NCBI RefSeq assembly: GCF_003258365.1
Contig: NZ_QHKM01000007.1
Coordinates: 124,001 to 188,000 of the forward strand
DNA length: 64,000 nt
Direction: 5' to 3'
Origin: Hymenobacter edaphi
GTDB lineage: Bacteria; Bacteroidota; Bacteroidia; Cytophagales; Hymenobacteraceae
Of the stretch, positions 1-56,208 are shown piece by piece. The position numbers were made by a program, and so were the translations under genes. Numbering within the stretch: position 1 is the first letter of the stretch; every line of letters begins with the position of its first letter. The notes under the pieces were generated by a model. The model saw only the letters and a program-made list of their open reading frames with translations, had not been told where the DNA came from and did no database searches.

Positions 1-1345
1 ACTTCGGGGCCAGTTGAATGGCCTCGCGGCGCTTGCTCCAGCCTACCTGGCCCAGCAGGCGCTCCAGCACCCAGTTTTTGGCCGCGGTGGGGGCCAGGCT
101 CCAGGTCCAGCGGTGCTTCATGCCGTAGAGCCAGAGCTTGATGCCGCGCTCCTCCTCCTTGTCGTTGAAGTGCTCTTTCACGGATTGCTGCCGGTTGAGC
201 AGCAGGATGTTGTGAATCGGGATGCGCACCGGACACACCGAGGTGCAGGCCCCGCACAGCGACGAGGCGTAGCTCAGGTGCTTGTTGTCCTCGAAGCCGG
301 CCAGGTGCGGGGTGATGACCGAGCCGATGGGCCCCGAGTAGGTGGCCTCGTAGGTGTGGCCGCCGATGTTTTTGTAGACCGGGCACACGTTCAGGCAGGC
401 GCCGCAGCGGATGCACTGCAGGGCCTCGCGCTTGTCGGGCTGGGCGAGCAGGTTGGTGCGCCCGTTGTCGAGCAGCACCACGTACATTTCGTCGGGGCCG
501 TCTTTTTCCAGCGGCTGGCGCGGGCCCAGGTACACCGTGTTGTACACCGTCAGCTGCTGGCCGGTGCCGCTGGTGCTCAGCAGGGGCCAGAACAGGTCCA
601 GGTCCTGCAGCGAGGGAATCAGCTTTTCGATGCCGACCACCGCAATGTGGGTGCGCGGAAACGTGGCGGAGAGGCGGGCGTTGCCCTCGTTTTCGGTCAC
701 GGCCACGCCGCCCACGTCGGCCACCAGGAAGTTGCCGCCCGTCACGCCCACTTCGGCCGCGGTGTACTTGCCGCGCAGCAGCTTGCGGGCCGTGGCCACC
801 AGCTTCTGCGCGTCGTCGGTGGGCTCGATGTGCAGGTGCTTGACGAAGATGTCGGCAATGTCCTTCTTGCTCAGGTGCATGGCCGGCGTCACGATGTGGT
901 AGGGCCGCTCGCCGTTGAGCTGCACGATGTACTCGCCCAGGTCCGTTTCCACCGATTCCACCCCGTTCTGCTCCAGGAAGTGGTTGAGGTGAATTTCCTC
1001 GGTGGTCATGCTCTTGGCCTTCACCACCGTGCGGGCCCGCTTGCGCGCCACGATCTTGCCGATTTCCGTCAGCGCCTCCTTCGCGTCCTGGGCCCAGATG
1101 ACCTTGCCGCCGCGCTTGGTGAAGTTTTCCTCCCACTGCAGCAGGTACTGGTCAAGATTGTTGACAATCTGTGACTTGCGATATGCGGCACGGGAGCGGG
1201 CCAATTCATGGTCGCGGTACCAGCCCAGGCCGGTCTGCACCGCCGCGTTGTACTTGCCGATGTTGAAGCGAATCTTGCGCCGGTGCTCCAGATCGAAGGC
1301 CTTCGAGTCGGAGTCGGTCAGAAACTGGGCGGATTTAGTAGTCAT
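1..1345 (-). CDS. lutB: Lactate utilization iron-sulfur protein LutB (partial, 3' end outside window)
   Basis: Translating the minus strand from the ATG at 1345 gives about 448 residues without a stop before the left edge. LutB belongs to the LutABC system, which oxidises L-lactate to pyruvate in the cytoplasm. The protein carries two ferredoxin-like 4Fe-4S motifs, CIRCGACLNVCP from residue 311 and CGACTSVCP from residue 364, in the order expected for LutB/LldF, after an LUD domain containing TGGNFLVADVGGVAVTENEG. The start is adjacent to repeat element E1, whose left arm covers two bases of the ATG, so no Shine-Dalgarno is visible. lutA or lutC would lie outside the window. The family call is secure; the substrate is inferred from the family. 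Confidence 0.92.
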   Translation of the reverse strand, partial: MTTKSAQFLTDSDSKAFDLEHRRKIRFNIGKYNAAVQTGLGWYRDHELARSRAAYRKSQIVNNLDQYLLQWEENFTKRGGKVIWAQDAKEALTEIGKIVARKRARTVVKAKSMTTEEIHLNHFLEQNGVESVETDLGEYIVQLNGERPYHIVTPAMHLSKKDIADIFVKHLHIEPTDDAQKLVATARKLLRGKYTAAEVGVTGGNFLVADVGGVAVTENEGNARLSATFPRTHIAVVGIEKLIPSLQDLDLFWPLLSTSGTGQQLTVYNTVYLGPRQPLEKDGPDEMYVVLLDNGRTNLLAQPDKREALQCIRCGACLNVCPVYKNIGGHTYEATYSGPIGSVITPHLAGFEDNKHLSYASSLCGACTSVCPVRIPIHNILLLNRQQSVKEHFNDKEEERGIKLWLYGMKHRWTWSLAPTAAKNWVLERLLGQVGWSKRREAIQLAPK

Positions 1346-1818
1346 TGCTGAATTGCTGCATTGTTGAATTGTTGACGCAAGTGGCCCAACGTCAAATTTT
1401 CAGCATATCGTCGGTGTAGCGGATCAGGCCGTTGAGGGCTTTGGGGAGGCGCTTTAGTTCGACAAAGAACGACTCGTATTGTTCGATGTCGAGCAACTGT
1501 CGCACTTTGGCCTTCTCATTCCAGTCCAGCGACTCATACATCGAACCCTGCGCGTAGCGGAAGAACTTGATCTTGTCGCGCTTCCCGTAGCGTCCGAAAC
1601 CCTCGGCAATGTTGGCCGAAATGCTGTCGACGCTGCGCACAAACTGCTGACCGATGGTGTCGCGGGCAAAGCTGTTCCAACTACCTACTGCCAGCCAAAC
1701 CCGGTTGCTGAGGGCAAAACTGATGCGGTAAGCCTCGATATCGTTCAGTCGTAGGAATTTACGCTCTTCCATCTGCATTGTCTGGATCAACAATTTAACA
1801 ATGCAGCAATTAAACAAT
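1344..1818. mobile_element. Element E1: inverted word-repeat arms enclosing a four-helix-bundle gene
   Basis: The left arm (1344-1375) is four tandem 8-mers of the type ATTGCTGA. The right arm (1787-1818) is its inverted copy, matching 29 of 32 positions. The 411-nt loop contains one gene, the four-helix-bundle protein. The element fills the whole gap between the stop of the M28 peptidase (1823) and the start of lutB (1345). Eight other copies in the window have the same arm length but no gene in the loop. Calling it mobile is inference: I see no transposase and cannot define target-site duplications. Confidence 0.6.
1392..1772 (-). CDS. Four helix bundle protein (23S rRNA intervening-sequence / S23 family)
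   Basis: This 126-residue protein has the hallmark SISANIAEGFGR segment followed by KFFRYAQGSMYESLDW. That is the pattern of the TIGR02436/S23 four-helix-bundle family, known from open reading frames inside 23S rRNA intervening sequences and related in fold to the Avd proteins of diversity-generating retroelements. Biochemical function is unknown; a basic helical bundle is compatible with nucleic-acid binding. I chose the ATG at 1772 (MEERKFLRL); the ATG at 1778 adds two residues, and a longer reading from 1817 would run through the repeat arm and is unlikely. The gene is the only cargo of the inverted-repeat element at 1344-1818. Neighbours on both sides are unrelated housekeeping or secreted enzymes on the same strand. 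Confidence 0.88.
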   Translation of the reverse strand: MEERKFLRLNDIEAYRISFALSNRVWLAVGSWNSFARDTIGQQFVRSVDSISANIAEGFGRYGKRDKIKFFRYAQGSMYESLDWNEKAKVRQLLDIEQYESFFVELKRLPKALNGLIRYTDDMLKI

Positions 1819-5274: not shown

Positions 5275-5361
5275 ATGGCTGCATGGCTGAATGGTTAAAT
5301 GGCTGATTGTTCCAGCGGCGCCAGAACGACCAGCCATTTAACCATTCAGCCATTCAGCCAT
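5275..5361. repeat. Element E2: inverted arms of ATGGCTGA-type 8-mers
   Basis: The left arm (5275-5306) and right arm (5330-5361) are each four 8-mers, and they match as inverted copies at 30 of 32 positions. The 23-nt loop has GTTC near its start and GAAC near its end. The element fills the gap between the start of M28 copy 2 (5266) and the stop of M28 copy 3 (5368-5370). It can fold into a very long hairpin in the transcript. No T-run follows, so a classical terminator role is not obvious. Confidence 0.85.
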
Positions 5362-5367
5362 GCAGCG

Positions 5368-8622: not shown

Positions 8623-10299
8623 ATGAACAAAGCGTTTCGCCTACTGCTGCTGCTAGCCGCTTTGGGCTTCCTCGGGCTGCACGAGCTACTGGCCCAGACG
8701 CCCGCCCCGGGCCAGGCGCCCGTGGCCTCGGGCGCGCCCATGTCGCTGAGCCTTTCGCAGGCCGTTGACTTCGCCCTCAAAAACAAATCCTCGCTGATGG
8801 CCACCCGCCTGGGCGAGCAGACCGCCCACGCCCGCGTCGGCGAAATTCGCTCCGCCGGGCTGCCGCAGGTGAACGTGGCCGCCAACCTGGCCGACAACTT
8901 CAAGCTGCAGAAGTCCCTGGTCGACGTGGGCGCCTTCGGGGGCTCCACCGCCACCCAGCTCACTTCCGCCGACGTGACGGCCGCCCAGGGCGGGCAGAAC
9001 GTCAACCTCTCCCAGGTGCAGGTGGAGCGCACGCCGGTGCCGCCCCAGGCCATTGCCTTCGGCCTGCGGCACGCCGGCAACACCAGCGCCTCGGTGTCGC
9101 AGCTGCTCTTCGATGGCTCGTATCTGATTGGCCTGAAGGCCGCTAAGGTGTACGAAGACCTGGCCAAGAAGCAAACCCAGCAGGCCGAAATCGACGTGGT
9201 GGAGCAGGTGCAGAAGGCCTACTACAGCACCCTGGTCGCCCGCGCCCGCCTGGAGCTGCTGGCCCGCAACGTGCAGCGCCTCGACACGCTGCTCTACCAG
9301 ACCAACGCTACTTATAAGGAGGGCTTCGTGGAGAAGCTCGATGTGGACCGCCTGCGCGTGCAGCGCAACAACCTGGTGGTGGAGCAGCAGAAAGCCCAGC
9401 GCCTGACCGAGCTGAGCGTGGCCCTGCTGAAGTTCCAGATGGGCCTGCCCCAGGAACAGCCGGTGGTGCTGACCGATCAGCTCGACGGGGCTCTGGTGGA
9501 TGCCAACTCCCTGCGCCAGCGCCTGGGCGCGGCCAACTTCAACACCGGCAGCGGCGACCGTAGCCTGGGCGGCGTGCCCACGGCCCCGGCCCCCACGGGC
9601 GGCAACGCCGCCGAGCAGGCCCGCCAGGACCAGCAGTCGGCCCTGAGCGGGGCCCGGCCCAGCCAGGCCGCGGCGGCCTTCAACTACAACAACCGCATCG
9701 AGTTCACGACCCTGGAAACCCAGCAGGCCCTGGCCGGCCTCGATTTGGCTAACCGCCGCGCCGGTGCCTACCCGCGCCTGGTAGCTACGGCTGCCTACGG
9801 CTTCAACGGCTCGGCCAACGGCCTGGGCAACCTGTTTGCCTTCCGCGGCCCGAACTCGGTGGACGGCAACGGCTTCCCCAACCAGAACTGGTTTGGCTTC
9901 GGCAACGTGGGCCTGAGCTTGCAGATTCCGGTGTTCGACGGCTTCCGCCGCAAGTACCAGGTGCAGCAGGCGCGCATTCAGCAGCAGACCATTGAGCGGG
10001 GCTTCGAGACGCTGCGCCAGAGCATCGACCTGCAGGACGCGCAGAGCCGCACCACGCTCACCAATGCCCTGGACGTGCTCGACAACCAGAAAGCCAACCT
10101 GGAGCTGGCTACCGACGTGGCCCGCGTGTCGCGCATCAAGTTCCAGGAGGGCGTGGGCTCGAACCTGGAAGTCATTACCGCCGAAACCGACCTGCGCTCG
10201 GCCCAGACCAACTACTACGCCGCCCTCTACGACGTGCTGGTGGCCAAGGTGGACCGCGACAAAGCCACCGGCGAGCTGTTCAATCAGACGAAAAAGTAA
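8623..10299 (+). CDS. TolC family outer membrane efflux protein
   Basis: 558 residues with a signal peptide (cleavage near LLAQ), then the two repeated helical-hairpin units of the TolC fold. Typical pieces are LSLSQAVDFALKNKSSLMATRLGEQ near the N-terminus and VGLSLQIPVFDGFRRKYQVQQARI followed by VGSNLEVITAETDLRSAQTNYYAALYDVLVAKVDRDKATGEL in the second half. It is long for the family because of a Gly/Ala-rich insert around 300-350. It would form the outer-membrane channel for the adaptor and RND pump encoded next. The stop codon at 10297-10299 touches repeat element E3. Confidence 0.93.
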   Translation: MNKAFRLLLLLAALGFLGLHELLAQTPAPGQAPVASGAPMSLSLSQAVDFALKNKSSLMATRLGEQTAHARVGEIRSAGLPQVNVAANLADNFKLQKSLVDVGAFGGSTATQLTSADVTAAQGGQNVNLSQVQVERTPVPPQAIAFGLRHAGNTSASVSQLLFDGSYLIGLKAAKVYEDLAKKQTQQAEIDVVEQVQKAYYSTLVARARLELLARNVQRLDTLLYQTNATYKEGFVEKLDVDRLRVQRNNLVVEQQKAQRLTELSVALLKFQMGLPQEQPVVLTDQLDGALVDANSLRQRLGAANFNTGSGDRSLGGVPTAPAPTGGNAAEQARQDQQSALSGARPSQAAAAFNYNNRIEFTTLETQQALAGLDLANRRAGAYPRLVATAAYGFNGSANGLGNLFAFRGPNSVDGNGFPNQNWFGFGNVGLSLQIPVFDGFRRKYQVQQARIQQQTIERGFETLRQSIDLQDAQSRTTLTNALDVLDNQKANLELATDVARVSRIKFQEGVGSNLEVITAETDLRSAQTNYYAALYDVLVAKVDRDKATGELFNQTKK

Positions 10300-10402
10300 G
10301 GAGCTAGGAGTCAGGAGCTAGGAGCTGGAAGCTCCTGACCCAGCCACAGTTGATTGCCCAACACCCCCGATTCTAGCTCCTAACTTCTTGCTACTAGCTC
10401 CT
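10299..10402. repeat. Element E3: inverted arms of AGGAGCT-type heptamers
   Basis: The left arm (10299-10330) is built of 7-mers of the type AGGAGCT. The right arm (10371-10402) is its inverted copy with 26 of 32 positions matching, separated by a 40-nt loop. It starts on the last base of the tolC stop codon and ends six bases before the adaptor ATG, so it fills the intercistronic gap of an efflux operon. AGGAG words resemble Shine-Dalgarno sequence, but in the right arm they lie on the minus strand. Confidence 0.85.
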
Positions 10403-10408
10403 TCTCCA

Positions 10409-15592: not shown

Positions 15593-15645
15593 AAACGCCA
15601 ACGGCCCGCTTCCCTCACGCAGAGGGAAGCGGGCCGTTGGCGTTT
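15593..15645. terminator. Bidirectional hairpin terminator
   Basis: A perfect 23-bp inverted repeat (15593-15615 and 15623-15645) with a 7-nt loop between the convergent ACP-like gene and the DUF1232 gene. The outer ends are AAAC/GTTT, giving short U-tracts in both directions. Confidence 0.85.
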
Positions 15646-19077: not shown

Positions 19078-19162
19078 GTGAAATGGTGAGGTGGTGAACT
19101 AGTGAGTTTGACGTTCGGGTAATTCGGACGACACTCACTATTTCACTATCTCGCCATTTCAC
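19078..19162. repeat. Element E4: inverted arms of GTGAAATG-type 8-mers
   Basis: The left arm (19078-19109) and right arm (19131-19162) are each four 8-mers, mostly GTGA plus four variable bases; 27 of 32 positions match in inverted orientation. The 21-nt loop contains GTTC near its start and CGGACG at its end. It lies between the membrane-protein stop (19073) and the fkbM promoter (19169). Confidence 0.9.
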
Positions 19163-44861: not shown

Positions 44862-44868
44862 AGGCAAT

Positions 44869-45826: not shown

Positions 45827-48826
45827 CTACTGCCGCACCACGGGCAGCACCTGCTGCTGCCCACCCTGCCTGATGATGAGCCGGTACACGCCCGCGGGCC
45901 AGGTGGCGGCCTCGTCCAGCGTCAGCTGCTGCCGGACGCCCGCCGCCCCGCCGAGGGTGCGCGTAGTGCGCACCCGGCCCAGCGCGTCGCGCACGGTCAG
46001 CAGCACGGGGCCGGGCTGCCGGGGCTGCACCGCCACCGTCAGCGGGCCGGCCGAGGGCGAGGGGTAGGCTTCGCCGCCCAGCAGCGCGGTGGCCGCGGCG
46101 GCGTGCGCGGCCAGCGGGCGGTCGGCCAGCACGGCCAGGAAGGTGCCGCTGAAGTCGCCCTGCGTGTTGCTCACTACGCTGCTGCCGAAGGTGGCCGCGG
46201 AGGTGTAGAAGTCGCCGGCCACGTACAGCTGCTGGCCGCTCAGGGCCAAGGCCGTGGTGCCGCTGCTGGGTACGGGCTGAGCCCAGCTCCACTGTCCGGC
46301 CGGCGTAGCCTTGGCCACGAAGGCGTAGGTGCCGCCGGTGTGGTAGAGCGTCGTACTGCCGAATACGGCCCGGTTGCTGGCGTAGAAGCCGGTCAGGTAG
46401 GCGTTGCCCGCGGCGTCGAGGGCAAAGTCAGTGAGGTTTTCTCTGCCGGTGGCGCCCGCGCCCAGGCCCCAGAGCCACTGCCCGCTGGGGTTGAGCTTGG
46501 CCACGAACACGTTGCTGCTGTCGCCGCGCGGCAGCGTGACGCCGCCGATGGTGGGCATGCCCCAGTAACCGCCACCCACGTAGACGTTGCCGGCTGCGTC
46601 CAGCTGCACGCGGGAGCCGCTGGCGTCTGCCTGCCCGCTGCCCCACAGCCAGTTGCCGGTAGCATCGAGCTTAGCCACGAAAGCCATATAGCCCGCGCCG
46701 GTGAGCGTGGTGCTGCCCAGCGTGAGCGAGGGACTTTGGGAGAAGCCCGTTACGTAAGTGTTGCCGCTGGCATCCAGGGCAATGCCGTAGCTTTCGTCGC
46801 GGCCGCTGCTGCTGCCCTTGGTGGCCCAGAGCCACTGGCCGCCGGTGTTGAGCTTGGCCACGTACAGTTCGGTGGCGTAGTTGCTGCCCGCGTTGGGGAG
46901 CGTGGTGCTGCCGAAAGCCAGCTGCGGGCTGCCGTATTCGCCGGTGATGCTGAGGTTGCCGGCCGCGTCGACGGCTAGGCCGTGGCAGTAATCGTCGCCG
47001 GTGCCGCCGGCCGCTTGGGCCCAGAGCCACTGGCCGCTGCCGTTGAGCTTGGCCACGAACAGGTCCATGCCGTAGCTGGTGCCGCCGTTGCTGCTGAGCG
47101 GAGTGGTGCCGAATAGGGCGTCGCGGCTGGCAAATTCGCCGACTACGTACACGTTGCCGGCCGCGTCGAGGGCCAGGGCGTTGATTTGGTCGGCCGCGCT
47201 GCCGCCGCCGCGCACCACCCACTGCCACTGGCCGGCGCTGTTGAGCTTGCCCACGAAGGCGTCGCTGCCGGCGGCGCTGAGCGTGGTGCTGCCAAACGTC
47301 TGAGTGCCGCTGAAAAAGCCCGCCAGGTAGGTATTGCCGGCCGCGTCGGTCATCAGGGCCGTCACCTTCCGCAGACCGCCCGTCGCCGAGCCTTTGGCCC
47401 ACTGCCACTGGCCCGTGGCATTCAGCTGCGCGATGAAGGCGTCCGTCTGGCCGCCCGATTCGAGTACCGTGGCGCCCAGGGTCAGGCTCGCCTGCCGGTA
47501 GGCGCCGACCACGCTGAGGTTGCCGTTGGTGCCCAGGGCCAGTCCGTAGGCGTAGTCAGAGCCGGGGCCGGTAGCCTGCGTAGCCCATGCCCACTGCCGG
47601 TTGGTGCCCAGCTTGGCCACGAAAGCGTCTGACAAGGAGGTGGTGAGCGTGGTGCTGCCGAAGGTGATGCCCGGGCCCTGAGCCTGCCCGCTCACGTACA
47701 CCGCGCCGGCGACATCCACGGCCAAGGCCTCGGCGATAATGTAGGCGCCGACGCCGCCCAGGTTCTGCTGCGCCCACTGCCACTGGCCGGCCGCGTTAAG
47801 CTGGGCCACAAACAGGGCCGAACCCGAGCCGTAGCCTATGCCAGCCAGGGTGATAGTACCGAAGGTAGGGTTGTAGCCGTTGTTAAGTTGGCCCGCCACG
47901 TACACATTGCCGGTGGCGTCCAGGGCGACAGCCGCGACTTCCGCGCTGCAGCCGCTGCCGGTGCTGCTACTGCCGCTCACCCATTGCCACTGCCCGCTGG
48001 CGCTGAGCTTGGCCACGTAGGTGTTGGAGCTGTAAGCTTGCCCGCCGGTCAGCGTGAGGCTGCCGAAACTCAGGGAGGTGCCACGGTAGGAGCCCGTTAG
48101 GTACACGTTGCCGGCGGCGTCCGCCACCATGCTCTTGGCCCCGGCACCGATGGCGCTGACCCATTGGCACTGGCCGGTGCTGCTCACCTGCGCCACAAAG
48201 CTGCTGTTGGCCGGCAGCGTTTGGGCGCCCAGGCTGGCCGTGCCGGTACAGTTACCCGCTACGTACACCGTGCCGGTCGCATCGGCCGCCAGCGCCGTCA
48301 GTTCGGCGTATCTGCCGCCTTGGGTCTGGATGGCCCATTGCCACTGCCCGCTGCCGTTGAGCTTGGCCACGTACCCGGTGAGCGTGTATTGGACGGCGCT
48401 GCTGAGTACGGTAGTGCCGAACGTAGCCAGGTTAGCGCCGAACGTGCCGGCTACGTACACGTTGCCGGCGGCGTCCACCGCTAGGCTCCGTGCTAGCTTG
48501 CTTTCTTCGCTGCCCCCGCCCCCGCGCACCACCCACTGGTAAGTGCCGGAAGCGTTGAGCTTGGCCACGAAGACGTCGTTGTAGCCGCCAGTAAGTATGG
48601 TGCTGCCAAACGCTACGGTGCCGCTGAACGAGCCGGCCACGTAGGTGTTGCCGGCTGCATCGGTAACGGTCTTGGTGGCGCTGGCCGTACCCTGGTACGG
48701 CGAGGTGCCGACGGCCTGGGCCCGTTCCCAGACCTGCGCCTGGACGCCGGCAGCCCGGCAGAAGAAAAGGATGGCCAGCAGCCAGAAACCGGGGCCGCGC
48801 CGGGGGCGAAGTAGTGTTGTAATCAT
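45827..48826 (-). CDS. Giant SBBP-type beta-propeller repeat protein with T9SS sorting domain, copy 2
   Basis: About 999 residues; start at 48826 with a signal peptide (FWLLAILFFCRAAGVQAQ). About 16 repeats of roughly 55 residues share the vocabulary of copy 1 (GQWQWA...LALDAAGNVYVAGxF...FVAKLNxSGQW). The C-terminal 85 residues form a T9SS sorting domain: AYPSPSAGPLTVAVQPRQPGPVLLTVRDALGRV ... WPAGVYRLIIRQGGQQQVLPVV. A TAGCTTTG -7 box at 48870-48877 overlaps the stop codon of the kinase gene. Surface-exposed protein of unknown binding partner. Confidence 0.92.
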   Translation of the reverse strand: MITTLLRPRRGPGFWLLAILFFCRAAGVQAQVWERAQAVGTSPYQGTASATKTVTDAAGNTYVAGSFSGTVAFGSTILTGGYNDVFVAKLNASGTYQWVVRGGGGSEESKLARSLAVDAAGNVYVAGTFGANLATFGTTVLSSAVQYTLTGYVAKLNGSGQWQWAIQTQGGRYAELTALAADATGTVYVAGNCTGTASLGAQTLPANSSFVAQVSSTGQCQWVSAIGAGAKSMVADAAGNVYLTGSYRGTSLSFGSLTLTGGQAYSSNTYVAKLSASGQWQWVSGSSSTGSGCSAEVAAVALDATGNVYVAGQLNNGYNPTFGTITLAGIGYGSGSALFVAQLNAAGQWQWAQQNLGGVGAYIIAEALAVDVAGAVYVSGQAQGPGITFGSTTLTTSLSDAFVAKLGTNRQWAWATQATGPGSDYAYGLALGTNGNLSVVGAYRQASLTLGATVLESGGQTDAFIAQLNATGQWQWAKGSATGGLRKVTALMTDAAGNTYLAGFFSGTQTFGSTTLSAAGSDAFVGKLNSAGQWQWVVRGGGSAADQINALALDAAGNVYVVGEFASRDALFGTTPLSSNGGTSYGMDLFVAKLNGSGQWLWAQAAGGTGDDYCHGLAVDAAGNLSITGEYGSPQLAFGSTTLPNAGSNYATELYVAKLNTGGQWLWATKGSSSGRDESYGIALDASGNTYVTGFSQSPSLTLGSTTLTGAGYMAFVAKLDATGNWLWGSGQADASGSRVQLDAAGNVYVGGGYWGMPTIGGVTLPRGDSSNVFVAKLNPSGQWLWGLGAGATGRENLTDFALDAAGNAYLTGFYASNRAVFGSTTLYHTGGTYAFVAKATPAGQWSWAQPVPSSGTTALALSGQQLYVAGDFYTSAATFGSSVVSNTQGDFSGTFLAVLADRPLAAHAAAATALLGGEAYPSPSAGPLTVAVQPRQPGPVLLTVRDALGRVRTTRTLGGAAGVRQQLTLDEAATWPAGVYRLIIRQGGQQQVLPVVRQ

Positions 48827-54052: not shown

Positions 54053-54056
54053 GGCG

Positions 54057-54146
54057 GTGAACTAGTGAGGTGGTGAAATGATAAGTTGATGTTCTGGTGA
54101 AGCAAGCTGCCGGGCAACTCACCATTTCACCGGCTCACCACCTCAC
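54057..54146. repeat. Element E6: inverted arms of GTGA-type 8-mers
   Basis: The left arm (54057-54088) and right arm (54115-54146) are each four 8-mers, 25 of 32 inverted matches, loop 26 nt with GTTCTGG near its start. It fills the gap between the mnmH TTG start and the pdxJ stop (54143-54145), which the right arm overlaps. Confidence 0.88.
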
Positions 54147-54856
54147 TGCAGCTGCCGCAGGTACTGCTGAATGGTGTTTTCCAAACCCAGGTAGAGCGCG
54201 TCGCAGACGAGGGCGTGGCCGATGCTGACTTCGGCCAGGCCGGGCAGCTGCTGGTGCAGGAAAGCGAGGTTGTCGAGGTCCAGGTCGTGGCCGGCATTCA
54301 CGCCCAGGCCAAGCTGCCGGGCCAGTGCGGCGGCGTCGCGGTAGGGGGCCACGGCGGCTTCGCGGTCCTGGTGGTAGCCGGTGGCGTAGGCTTCGGTATA
54401 CAGCTCGATGCGGTCGGTGCCGGTGGTGGCGGCGGCGCGCACCAGCTCCGCCACCGGGTCGAGAAAGATGCTCACGCGGCAGCCCATCTGCTTGAAATCC
54501 TGCACGATGCCGCGCAGGTAGTCCTGGTGGCGGATGGTGTCCCAGCCGGCGTTGGAAGTAATGGCGTCGGGCGCGTCGGGCACTAGGGTCACCTGCTCGG
54601 GGCGCACTTCGCGCACCAGCGCGATGAAGTCGGGCGTGGGGTTGCCTTCGATGTTGAACTCGGTGGTGACCAGCGGCTTCAGGTCGCGCACGTCTTGGTA
54701 GCGAATGTGCCGCTCGTCGGGGCGCGGGTGCACCGTGATGCCCTCGGCCCCGAACCGCTCACAGTCGCGGGCGACCAGCAGCAGGTCGGGGCGGTTGTGG
54801 CCGCGGGCGTTCCGCAGGGTGGCAATTTTGTTGATGTTTACGCTTAGCTTCGTCAT
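54143..54856 (-). CDS. pdxJ: Pyridoxine 5'-phosphate synthase
   Basis: 237 residues, normal PdxJ length. PdxJ condenses 1-deoxyxylulose 5-phosphate with 3-amino-2-oxopropyl phosphate to form PNP. Key pieces: [89 protein letters not shown] and [14 protein letters not shown]. The start at 54856 is fixed by the [12 protein letters not shown] beginning. A CATCTTTG box about 30 bp upstream (54887-54894, minus strand) is a possible -7. Its stop lies in element E6. Confidence 0.96.
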
Positions 54857-54902
54857 GAATCCCGGAATTAGCGGATTTTTGCCGCCCCAAAGATGGGGAA
54901 TG

Positions 54903-55041
54903 GTGAACTGGTGAGGTGGTGAACTGGTGAGTGCCGTTCATTAGCCCATAATTTCCTGTTCTACGCTTTGGGTAGCGGTCCGAGGTGCATCCCCGCGCCG
55001 CCGGGCCGTCAACTCACCATTTCACAAATTCACCATTTCAC
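54903..55041. repeat. Element E7: inverted arms of GTGA-type 8-mers
   Basis: The left arm (54903-54934) and right arm (55010-55041), four 8-mers each, 25 of 32 inverted matches, loop 75 nt. It lies between the divergent starts of pdxJ and the yqeY-like gene. The loop contains a TACGCTTTG word (54962-54970) that could serve as a promoter for the right-hand gene. Confidence 0.88.
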
Positions 55042-55046
55042 CGCTT

Positions 55047-55508
55047 ATGTCCCTGAAAGAACGCATCGACGCCGATATCAAGAAGGCCATGCTGGCCAAA
55101 GACAAAGTGCGCCTGACCGCGCTGCGCAGCATCAAGTCGCAAATCATGCTGGCCGAAACCGCCGAGGGCGCCCACGGCACCATCAGCGCCGACGCCGAGC
55201 TGAAGCTGCTCAACAAAGCCGCCAAGCAGCGCCGCGAAGCCGCCGAAACCTACCAGCAGCAGTTTCGCTCCGACCTGGAAGAAGTGGAGCTGGCCGAGCT
55301 GGCCATCATCGAAGAGTACCTGCCCGCCCAGCTCTCCGAAGCCGATTTGGTGGAGCGCCTCGTCGAAATCATCCGCCGGGTGGGCGCCACCGGCCCCTCC
55401 GACCTGGGCAAGGTGATGGGCGTGGCCGCCCGCGAGCTGTCGGGCCAGGCCGACGGCAAAGCCATTTCGCAGACCGTGAGCCACCTGCTGAACAACACCA
55501 ATTTTTAA
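55047..55508 (+). CDS. GatB/YqeY domain-containing protein
   Basis: 153 residues, the full length of YqeY-type proteins: MSLKERIDADIKKAMLAKDKVRLTALRSIKSQI, then TYQQQFRSDLEEVELAELAIIEEYLPAQLSE and IIRRVGATGPSDLGKVMGVAARELSGQADGKAISQTV. The domain is that of the tail of amidotransferase subunit GatB; free-standing YqeY has no proven role. The ATG lies five bases after element E7 and the stop seven bases before E8. Confidence 0.93.
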   Translation: MSLKERIDADIKKAMLAKDKVRLTALRSIKSQIMLAETAEGAHGTISADAELKLLNKAAKQRREAAETYQQQFRSDLEEVELAELAIIEEYLPAQLSEADLVERLVEIIRRVGATGPSDLGKVMGVAARELSGQADGKAISQTVSHLLNNTNF

Positions 55509-55514
55509 TTTGAG

Positions 55515-55592
55515 GTGACAAGTGACAGGTAACACGTGACAGGTTAGTCGTGCTGACCTGTCACGTGTTACCTCTCACTTGCCACGTGTCAC
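55515..55592. repeat. Element E8: inverted arms of GTGACAG-type heptamers
   Basis: The left arm (55515-55547) and right arm (55553-55592) are four to five 7-mers each; the inner 28 positions match in inverted orientation with two differences. The loop is only 5 nt, making this the longest near-perfect hairpin in the window. It lies between the yqeY-like stop and the cvpA start. Confidence 0.88.
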
Positions 55593-55600
55593 TCAAAAAA

Positions 55601-56119
55601 ATGTCCGGCTTCGACCTGCTCTTGTTGATGCCCCTCGCGGTGGGGGCGGTGAAAGGCTTCCGGCGCGGTATCGTGCTGGAGGTGGTTTCCCTGCTGGCCT
55701 TCGTGCTCGGCGTGGTCGGCGGACTGAAGCTGCTGGGCACGGCCATTCCGCTGGTGCGGCACTACGTGGGCGAGGCCTTTGGCATGCTGCCGCTGGTGTC
55801 GTTCGTGCTGGTGTTTGCCCTCATTGCCTGGGGCGTACACATGGCGGGCGGCCTGCTCAAGAGCATGATTCACCTCACGCCCTTCGGCATGCTCGACAAC
55901 CTGCTGGGCGGCGCCGCGGGCGTGCTCAAGTGGGTGCTGGGCCTGAGCTTGCTGCTCTACGCCACCGGCCTGGCCGGCCTGCCCCTCGGCCGCGAGCTGA
56001 CCCACGGCTCCATGGTGCTGCCGCTGGTGCAGGATGCCACGCCCGTCGCGCTGAACGTGGTCGGCCTCGTCATGCCCTTCGCCTCCGAGCTGCTGAGCAC
56101 GCTGCGGAACGTTTTCTAG
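55601..56119 (+). CDS. CvpA family membrane protein
   Basis: 172 residues from the ATG at 55601. Four hydrophobic segments with the CvpA pattern: FDLLLLMPLAVGAVKGFRRGIVLEVVSLLAFVLGVVGG, FVLVFALIAWGVHMAGGLLKSMI, GMLDNLLGGAAGVLKWVLGLSLLLYATG. CvpA is linked to colicin V production and envelope stress in other bacteria. Element E8 fills the gap upstream and E9 the gap downstream. Confidence 0.9.
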   Translation: MSGFDLLLLMPLAVGAVKGFRRGIVLEVVSLLAFVLGVVGGLKLLGTAIPLVRHYVGEAFGMLPLVSFVLVFALIAWGVHMAGGLLKSMIHLTPFGMLDNLLGGAAGVLKWVLGLSLLLYATGLAGLPLGRELTHGSMVLPLVQDATPVALNVVGLVMPFASELLSTLRNVF

Positions 56120-56120
56120 C

Positions 56121-56203
56121 GGTGAACTGGTGAGATGGTGAAACAGGGAGTGCTGTTCTGGCCTCCCGGACGTCACTCACCACTTCGCTATTTCACCGTC
56201 TCA
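56121..56203. repeat. Element E9: inverted arms of GTGA-type 8-mers
   Basis: The left arm (56121-56152) and right arm (56172-56203), four 8-mers each, 21 of 32 inverted matches (the most decayed of the full elements), loop 19 nt with GTTCTGG at its start and CGGACG at its end. It begins one base after the cvpA stop and ends five bases before the pabA/trpG ATG. Confidence 0.82.
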
Positions 56204-56208
56204 CCGCC

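Follow-up and report, generated by a model that had tools for sequence, protein, structure and literature searches.

Inverted arrays of short repeats around a four-helix-bundle gene in Hymenobacter edaphi point to an undescribed kind of spreading genetic element

What is a single small gene doing between two inverted repeat arms, in the gap between two protein genes? The question comes from E1, an element at positions 1344-1818 of a stretch of Hymenobacter edaphi DNA (the window: 64,000 nucleotides, positions 124,001 to 188,000 of contig NZ_QHKM01000007.1, assembly GCF_003258365.1). An earlier note, made from the letters of the window, had described two 32-nt arms that match at 29 of 32 positions and frame exactly one gene, whose product is kin to the protein family of 23S rRNA intervening sequences (IVSs). 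All of this was borne out, and the observation on E1 was confirmed as part of a more general pattern, in which a four-helix-bundle (FHB) gene stands between two inverted arrays of short tandem units. The architecture is near certain, and its being common to FHB relatives points to an undescribed kind of spreading genetic element. The parts of E1 are as follows.

1344-1375, plus strand: left arm of E1, four 8-nt units, reading inward ATTGCTGA ATTGCTGC ATTGTTGA ATTGTTGA
1392-1778, minus strand: FHB gene of E1 (PF05635/TIGR02436), 128 codons and a stop codon
1787-1818, minus strand: right arm of E1, four inverted 8-nt units, 29 of 32 positions identical to the left arm

The arms, of ATTGTTGA type, align without gaps with a score of 23 (at +1/-2), and a repeat search of the window could extend the inverted repeat to 35 nt at 89%, with arms 411 nt apart. 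The reading frame is open over 1392-1817 on the minus strand, the ATG at 1778 being the likely start. The predicted protein matched PF05635 (E 1.9e-21; 76.7 bits, cut-off 33.8) and TIGR02436 (E 5.2e-24; 84.6 bits, cut-off 24). Pfam found PF05635 as its sole domain and no transposase domain, and PADLOC matched nothing. AlphaFold predicted the monomer as a confident four-helix bundle (mean pLDDT 93.9), and the closest solved folds are 2gsc (XCC0516; the best match) and 2rld, with five chains each. The passages of PMC4990558 on this family describe XCC0516 as a homopentamer and the PF05635 proteins as having no known function. The XCC0516 gene was not located with a fragment of the PDB sequence as the query, for which the best match had 67% identity.

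Could any intergenic region show such a frame? That idea was ruled out by neighbour, displaced and sliding controls and by a de novo scan. When the arm score was slid over the window (627 positions, 250-nt flanks, 320-nt gap), E1 was the single position scoring 14 or more. Four FHB genes were found in the window's genome (G000, 6.04 Mb), and all four have inverted arms, with units that differ between genes (ATTGTTGA; CAGTTGT; a GTTTTTC/GTTGTTC mix; AGGGTAGG). The earlier note had proposed looking for inverted arms of 7-8-mers beside FHB genes of sister genomes. Across eight genomes of the genus, 23 FHB loci were found in seven, and such arms were found at 20 of the 23, which under a gapped arm score exceed the best of 100 shuffles (the exceptions are L005, L016 and L023).

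Of the genomes drawn, 55 of 60 from the family and 116 of 148 from the phylum had FHB genes; the loci taken from the best matches listed in these searches are not a random sample. Of 158 loci, 120 had an ungapped score of at least 12, as did 2 of 312 neighbour controls and 23 of 627 window positions; when at least 14 was required, the counts were 108 of 158, 0 of 312, and 1 of 627, the one being E1. The ungapped +1/-2 score replaced a gapped +1/-1 score, under which 111 of the 158 loci beat all 100 of their own shuffles; the gapped score was dropped because it let through too much GC-rich coding DNA, with 185 of the 627 window positions scoring at least 18. A combined criterion, requiring either an inverted score of at least 12 or unit arrays on both flanks, held for 214 of 255 FHB loci, which come from Bacteroidota, from other phyla and from viral contigs, and for 7 of 338 controls displaced by 900 nt. 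By source, the 214 comprise 137 of the 158 loci, 60 of 78 loci on named contigs and 17 of 19 viral loci.

Score 12 was reached by 47 of 80 loci on named contigs, including metagenome-assembled genomes labelled Ignavibacteriae, Fibrobacter, Alpha- and Betaproteobacteria, Acidobacteriaceae, Clostridia and Paceibacterota; two of the 80 (L265, L269) have flanks under 100 nt and were excluded from the combined count. Among viral loci, 26 were found and 18 of 25 reach score 12, L172 being unscored. The combined count used 19 of the 26, near-duplicates and two weak matches being excluded; of those excluded, L185 and L189 pass and L173, L190, L191 and L192 fail. A search of annotated phage records matched nothing. 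Score 12 was also reached at 3 of 6 Nostocales plasmid loci and at at least 37 loci of a further set of 60, a lower bound given contig-end loci with wrong coordinates. At one gammaproteobacterial locus (L309 1420-1890), the FHB gene has an array downstream and a degenerate array upstream.

The de novo scan covered 2.144 Mb of genus sequence, in stretches placed away from other known FHB genes, and counted 31 hairpins. E1 was the sole single short gene framed by arrays; the remaining wide pairs were ordinary genes between two hairpins, or free of open reading frames. Two places where ordinary genes lie between two GTGAAATG-type hairpins are L405 1978-3305 and window 54127-54930. These results bear on the possibility that inverted heptad pairs are moved by something else and that FHB genes are passengers captured in their loops, perhaps many times. 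Gene-less pairs do outnumber FHB genes, and similar proteins can carry unrelated arms, as this would lead one to expect. The scan found no other cargo, and framing is near-constant in many phyla, so that capture seems quite unlikely.

What, then, do the arms have in common? The sequence is not shared. What is shared is a period of 7 nt (less often 8), about 4-5 units, inverted orientation, an inward strand poor in C, and an AG core. Self-identity within 240 arms was 0.67, 0.68, 0.67 and 0.58 at lags of 7, 14, 21 and 28, and 0.20-0.38 at other lags up to 30. Among 257 loci, strong arrays on both flanks had period 7 in 129 and period 8 in 22, while periods 5, 6, 9, 10 and 11 gave 1, 0, 3, 0 and 0; a period-7 control taken 700-900 nt away gave 1 of 162. 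The period-7 arrays have a median of 4.7 units (of 328 arrays, 128 round to 5 and 106 to 4). On the inward strand C makes up 10.5% of the bases, and 204 of the 240 arms have more G than C. When 159 period-7 loci were aligned cyclically, a shared core T-n-A-G-[T/A] emerged (G 85%, A 73%); it carries 2.43 bits per locus, whereas ten column-permuted sets gave 1.76 at most. Directly after the core come the two positions that are least conserved within a locus. On each strand the AG array comes first, at the 5' end, and its complement last, at the 3' end. Among loci chosen for arm agreement, the arms agree at 0.81 within an element and at 0.38 between elements whose proteins are 60-70% identical. 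In G000, long one-sided runs of GGTGAGGT-type 8-mers at C11:1506284-1506376 and C11:1076412-1076512 have no inverted partner among the listed sites, and therefore arrays can expand locally.

The AG core and the 4-5 units per array suggest a ring that reads AG-core heptads, one per subunit. TRAP, for comparison, binds spaced (U/G)AG triplets. The reading we prefer, which may equally well prove right or wrong, is that E1 is a selfish element without a transposase, and that its ring-shaped protein recognises the repeat units. E1 would be the gene-bearing form of a compact dispersing element, made of two inverted arrays of about 4-5 AG-core units of 7 nt (8 nt in E1) with one FHB gene between them. 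The FHB protein, a homopentameric ring if it resembles its solved relatives, would most likely bind the single-stranded array at about one unit per subunit, as TRAP does, and the protein-bound arrays would probably mark the ends of the element. As it encodes neither a nuclease nor a transposase nor a reverse transcriptase, the element would probably be copied into intergenic gaps by host replication and repair enzymes, and in trans the protein may also assist gene-less pairs that belong to its family. As for the separate parts, dispersal of the element is likely, and heptad binding by the FHB ring is an even bet.

Do such elements come and go from sites? The earlier note had proposed comparing loci with and without the element, and insertion polymorphism was found. 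In a gammaproteobacterial genus, an FHB element with GGGAATC-type arms lies between accB and accC in two of eight genomes (G581, where the FHB gene is interrupted, and G787); the other six have no array there, and in the nearest genome (accC 97% identical) the gap is 13 bases. In Nostoc edaphicum, an element separates ribonucleotide reductase genes; at that place in Calothrix NIES-4105, the matching ATG is preceded by 16 bases. No target-site duplication was evident by eye at either site. Within the window's genus, the rseP-dxr site holds an element in G000, G002 (with an in-frame stop) and G003, and short left-array remnants, identified by eye, in G004-G007; this element therefore looks old in the genus, and later lost. 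At the former place of the FHB element in sister genomes (L360, L361, L363, L365), there is another repeat of GTCATCCTGAGC...GAAGGACCTT type with inverted copies. On plasmids of Anabaena sp. 90 (L275 1060-1490) and Pseudanabaena galeata (L394 1760-2470), an FHB element with strongly expanded arrays sits in a type I-D CRISPR locus, with cas6 on one side and cas4 on the other, and the same site in Pseudanabaena ABRG5-3 (L395 2447-2487) has a single short AATTACG array and no gene.

Arms also tend to follow the protein at unrelated sites. Across 208 loci, and where the flanks are not homologous, the more alike two proteins are, the more alike their arms tend to be (Spearman 0.14; 0 of 200 permutations; kinship uncorrected). 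Pairs with similar arms make up about 1% below 50% protein identity, 4.3% at 50-60%, 12.8% at 60-70%, and 63% of 30 pairs at 70-80%. A protein-level flank check kept 151 of 180 pairs at 62% identity or above, 30 of them with similar arms, and 11 of 22 pairs at least 70% identical and without flank homology have similar arms.

The main rival explanation is an autoregulated gene for a nucleic-acid-binding protein, not itself mobile, whose arrays are operators or translational control sites and whose gene-less pairs are a regulon or leftovers. It fits the placement of the arrays, which lie a median of 28 nt from the most upstream ATG (189 loci) and 7 nt from the stop codon, overlapping the gene end in 61 of 208 loci. 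The age of the rseP-dxr copy is also in its favour, as is strong purifying selection: dN/dS was 0.02-0.24 in six pairs, which indicates that the FHB protein is under constraint (dS was unmeasurable in two of eight pairs and high in some others). It leaves three things unexplained, namely the inverted array downstream, the occupied and empty sites, and the similar protein-plus-arm units at unrelated sites, and we consider it unlikely.

If E1 is the gene-bearing form of a dispersing element, what are the other inverted pairs of the window? The earlier note had taken them for gene-less elements with the arms of E1. They are indeed gene-less derivatives, eight in number, with an architecture like that of E1; the arms are unlike those of E1 and fall into five different unit types. 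No strand is assigned to them.

5275-5366: gene-less pair of AATGGCTG type, which also frames FHB gene L009 in G001
10290-10404: gene-less pair of AGGAGCT type, period 7, which also frames FHB gene L015 in G007
19078-19162: gene-less pair of GTGAAATG type, which also frames L010, L017 and L018
44865-44956: gene-less pair of AATGAGTG type, missing at the matching sites of G005 and G004
54054-54149: gene-less pair of GTGAAATG type
54890-55046: gene-less pair with unit GTGAACTG, grouped with the GTGAAATG type
55502-55598: gene-less pair of GTGACAGG type; similar units frame L019 in G007
56118-56205: gene-less pair with unit GTGAACTG, grouped with the GTGAAATG type, missing at the matching site of G004

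For four of the five unit types, a sister genome has an FHB gene with arms of that type; the remaining one, AATGAGTG, is similar to L014 and L023. Where the pairs at 44865 and 56118 are missing, the sister gaps are short; for four other pairs, the compared sister holds unrelated sequence at the site.

The GTGAAATG pattern was counted across the genus, with sites overlapping within arrays: 416 in G000, 404 in G002, 134 in G005, 111 in G006, and 0-4 in each of the other four genomes. FHB genes with GTGAAATG-type arms occur in G002, G005 and G006 (one clade, support 95/96) and not in G000, so that the pattern is abundant in three of three genomes with a matching FHB gene and in one of five without. 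Other unit types were counted in samples of 80-364 kb per genome, where an inverted pair can count as two sites, and five of the 23 loci were left out of the scan with arms too short for it. The CAGTTGTC type, which forms the arms of L002, was counted at 11, 8 and 4 sites in the three genomes that carry its FHB gene, at 1, 2, 0, 0 and 0 in the remaining five, and at 0 in reversed controls; in total, this is 23 sites in 964 kb with the gene versus 3 sites in 1180 kb without it. Of 11 CAGTTGTC clusters shown from G000 and G002, eight are inverted pairs and three single arrays. Gene-less copies thus share the end sequence of a coding member in the same genome for CAGTTGTC (in G000, G002 and G003), and do not for GTGAAATG in G000. 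E1's own arm type has 2 sites in 364 kb, a sample that includes the window and hence E1's own arms.

A number of results weigh against the reading of E1 as a selfish element that spreads with its protein. GTGAAATG is the commonest arm type of the window, yet it is on none of the four FHB genes of G000; with 416 sites and no FHB gene whose arms match, this genome does not demonstrate present-day mobilisation in trans. The GTGAAATG comparison is also not independent, because the GTGAAATG-rich genomes are mutually closest by lutB identity. The AGGAGCT and GTGACAAG types have sites in G000 (4 each) and their FHB genes in G007 (0 sites in 80 kb), the L014 type is spread evenly with no link to the genome of its FHB gene, and the AT-rich types (L013, L020, L021) are no higher than reversed controls. 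The overall correlation between protein and arms is weak, and some pairs at 71-73% protein identity have unrelated arms. FHB genes without arms, which the earlier note had named as the observation that would count against its idea, do exist as a minority: 41 of 255 loci fail the combined arm criterion. Lastly, no clean empty counterpart of E1 was found among the seven sisters, each with different intergenic DNA.

Which known system comes closest? On the features tested, E1 does not belong to the 23S rRNA IVSs, to repetitive extragenic palindromes with their REP-associated tyrosine transposases (REP/RAYT), to insertion sequences or miniature inverted-repeat transposable elements (MITEs), or to diversity-generating retroelements (DGRs), and in its working it comes nearest to a REP/RAYT pair whose protein is of the IVS kind. 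REP/RAYT and REPIN systems combine a coding member with many gene-less inverted pairs in intergenic DNA, as does the E1 system. In REP/RAYT the coding member encodes a Y1 transposase, whereas E1 encodes a PF05635 four-helix protein only and has a locus-specific arm sequence. The analogy drawn by the earlier note therefore stands for the coding member with its many gene-less pairs, and membership fails because Pfam finds only PF05635 and the ends vary in sequence between loci. MITEs and insertion sequences share with E1 the terminal inverted repeats, the intergenic insertion and the gene-less forms, but they have a fixed, shared terminal repeat; the ends of E1-type elements keep period and orientation rather than sequence, as the differing arm units of the four FHB genes of G000 illustrate, and there is no transposase.

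The 23S rRNA IVSs (S23p/IVP) are like E1 in the protein family PF05635 and in having one small open reading frame inside a terminal inverted repeat. They lie in rRNA, whereas E1 fills an intergenic space that has a lutB-type gene, with LUD and Fer4 domains, on one side and a gene for an M28 peptidase on the other, Rfam finds one tRNA in the window and nothing else, and the arms are tandem arrays of 7-8 nt. (At the same lutB-M28 site, G002 and G006 carry an unrelated open stretch of about 100 codons, L160 and L161.) It is very improbable that E1 acts at the RNA level like an IVS, its arms forming an RNA stem which RNase III excises from transcripts so that the insertion is harmless. The shared family speaks for this, along with the Coxiella IVS, for which the relevant part of PMC4990558 gives a 28-bp terminal stem cleaved by RNase III. 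The closely read sites, though, are between protein genes, and arm mismatches on the FHB strand do not favour G.U over A.C (139 vs 162, p 0.20; 208 loci, limited to those scoring at least 13, with thirteen duplicate arm pairs removed). This mismatch test gives the RNA-stem reading no support.

A partner reverse transcriptase was also considered, which would copy the element's RNA in trans and insert the cDNA, as the likeness to Avd might suggest. PF05635 is described as Avd-like in the portion of PMC10053308 that deals with it, and Avd of DGRs (4dwl) shares the four-helix-bundle fold and has five chains in its entry. The fold match to 4dwl has a probability of 0.99-1.00 and E 0.04-0.28, at just 9-11% identity, and the Avd-family scores of L001 and L002 are below cut-off. 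DGRs have a reverse transcriptase, whereas RVT_1 found none in G000, despite its four FHB genes and hundreds of pattern sites, nor in five of the seven other genus genomes, two of the eight having matches; reverse transcriptases too divergent for the model were not sought. This candidate was rejected as extremely improbable.

Heptameric repeats without a protein have been described before. The relevant passages of PMC4679880 report TAACTGA repeats in Beggiatoaceae, cyanobacteria and Bacteroidetes, describe no partner protein, and contain the author's suggestion that the mobile element might be a repeat-binding protein. The corresponding passages of PMC4692102 report GGGAATC repeats in Xanthomonas, with 70 and 75 inverted heptamer pairs in two genomes, and GGGGA(C/T)T in Nostoc. 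Searched for the words 'four helix' and 'S23', neither paper had them. These orphan repeats are like the arms described here in being 7-nt tandem units in intergenic DNA, inverted in pairs in Xanthomonas, and they differ in being described, in those texts, without a protein partner; here, FHB element L332 has GGGAATC-type arms. Among the matches listed from the open-access literature, subscription papers being outside its scope, no paper ties FHB genes to heptad arrays.

A broader reading, possible though rather doubtful, would make the FHB 'IVP' proteins heptad-reading rings (a pentamer on about five AG-core 7-mers, one per subunit) and the partner that the orphan repeats lack in cyanobacteria, Beggiatoaceae, Xanthomonas and Bacteroidota. 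Such rings would drive a class of transposase-less elements across much of bacteria, with ends set by period and orientation instead of sequence, and the 23S IVS would be an rRNA-resident offshoot. PF05635 genes are common in the phylum, and the heptad-array frame offers them a testable function, heptad binding, as well as a reason for the patchy spread of the FHB gene. The FHB protein becomes a candidate partner for protein-less heptameric repeats, with a possible origin for 23S rRNA intervening sequences. Should this hold, mobile DNA would be marked in a new way, by ends in which period and orientation persist while sequence does not.

Two other repeats were noticed in the window. The one at 15593-15645, probably a terminator, is inverted, with two perfectly matching 24-nt arms around a 5-nt loop, and lacks tandem units; at 46823-47257 there is a tandem repeat of about two copies of a unit of roughly 195-198 nt, with 74-75% matches.

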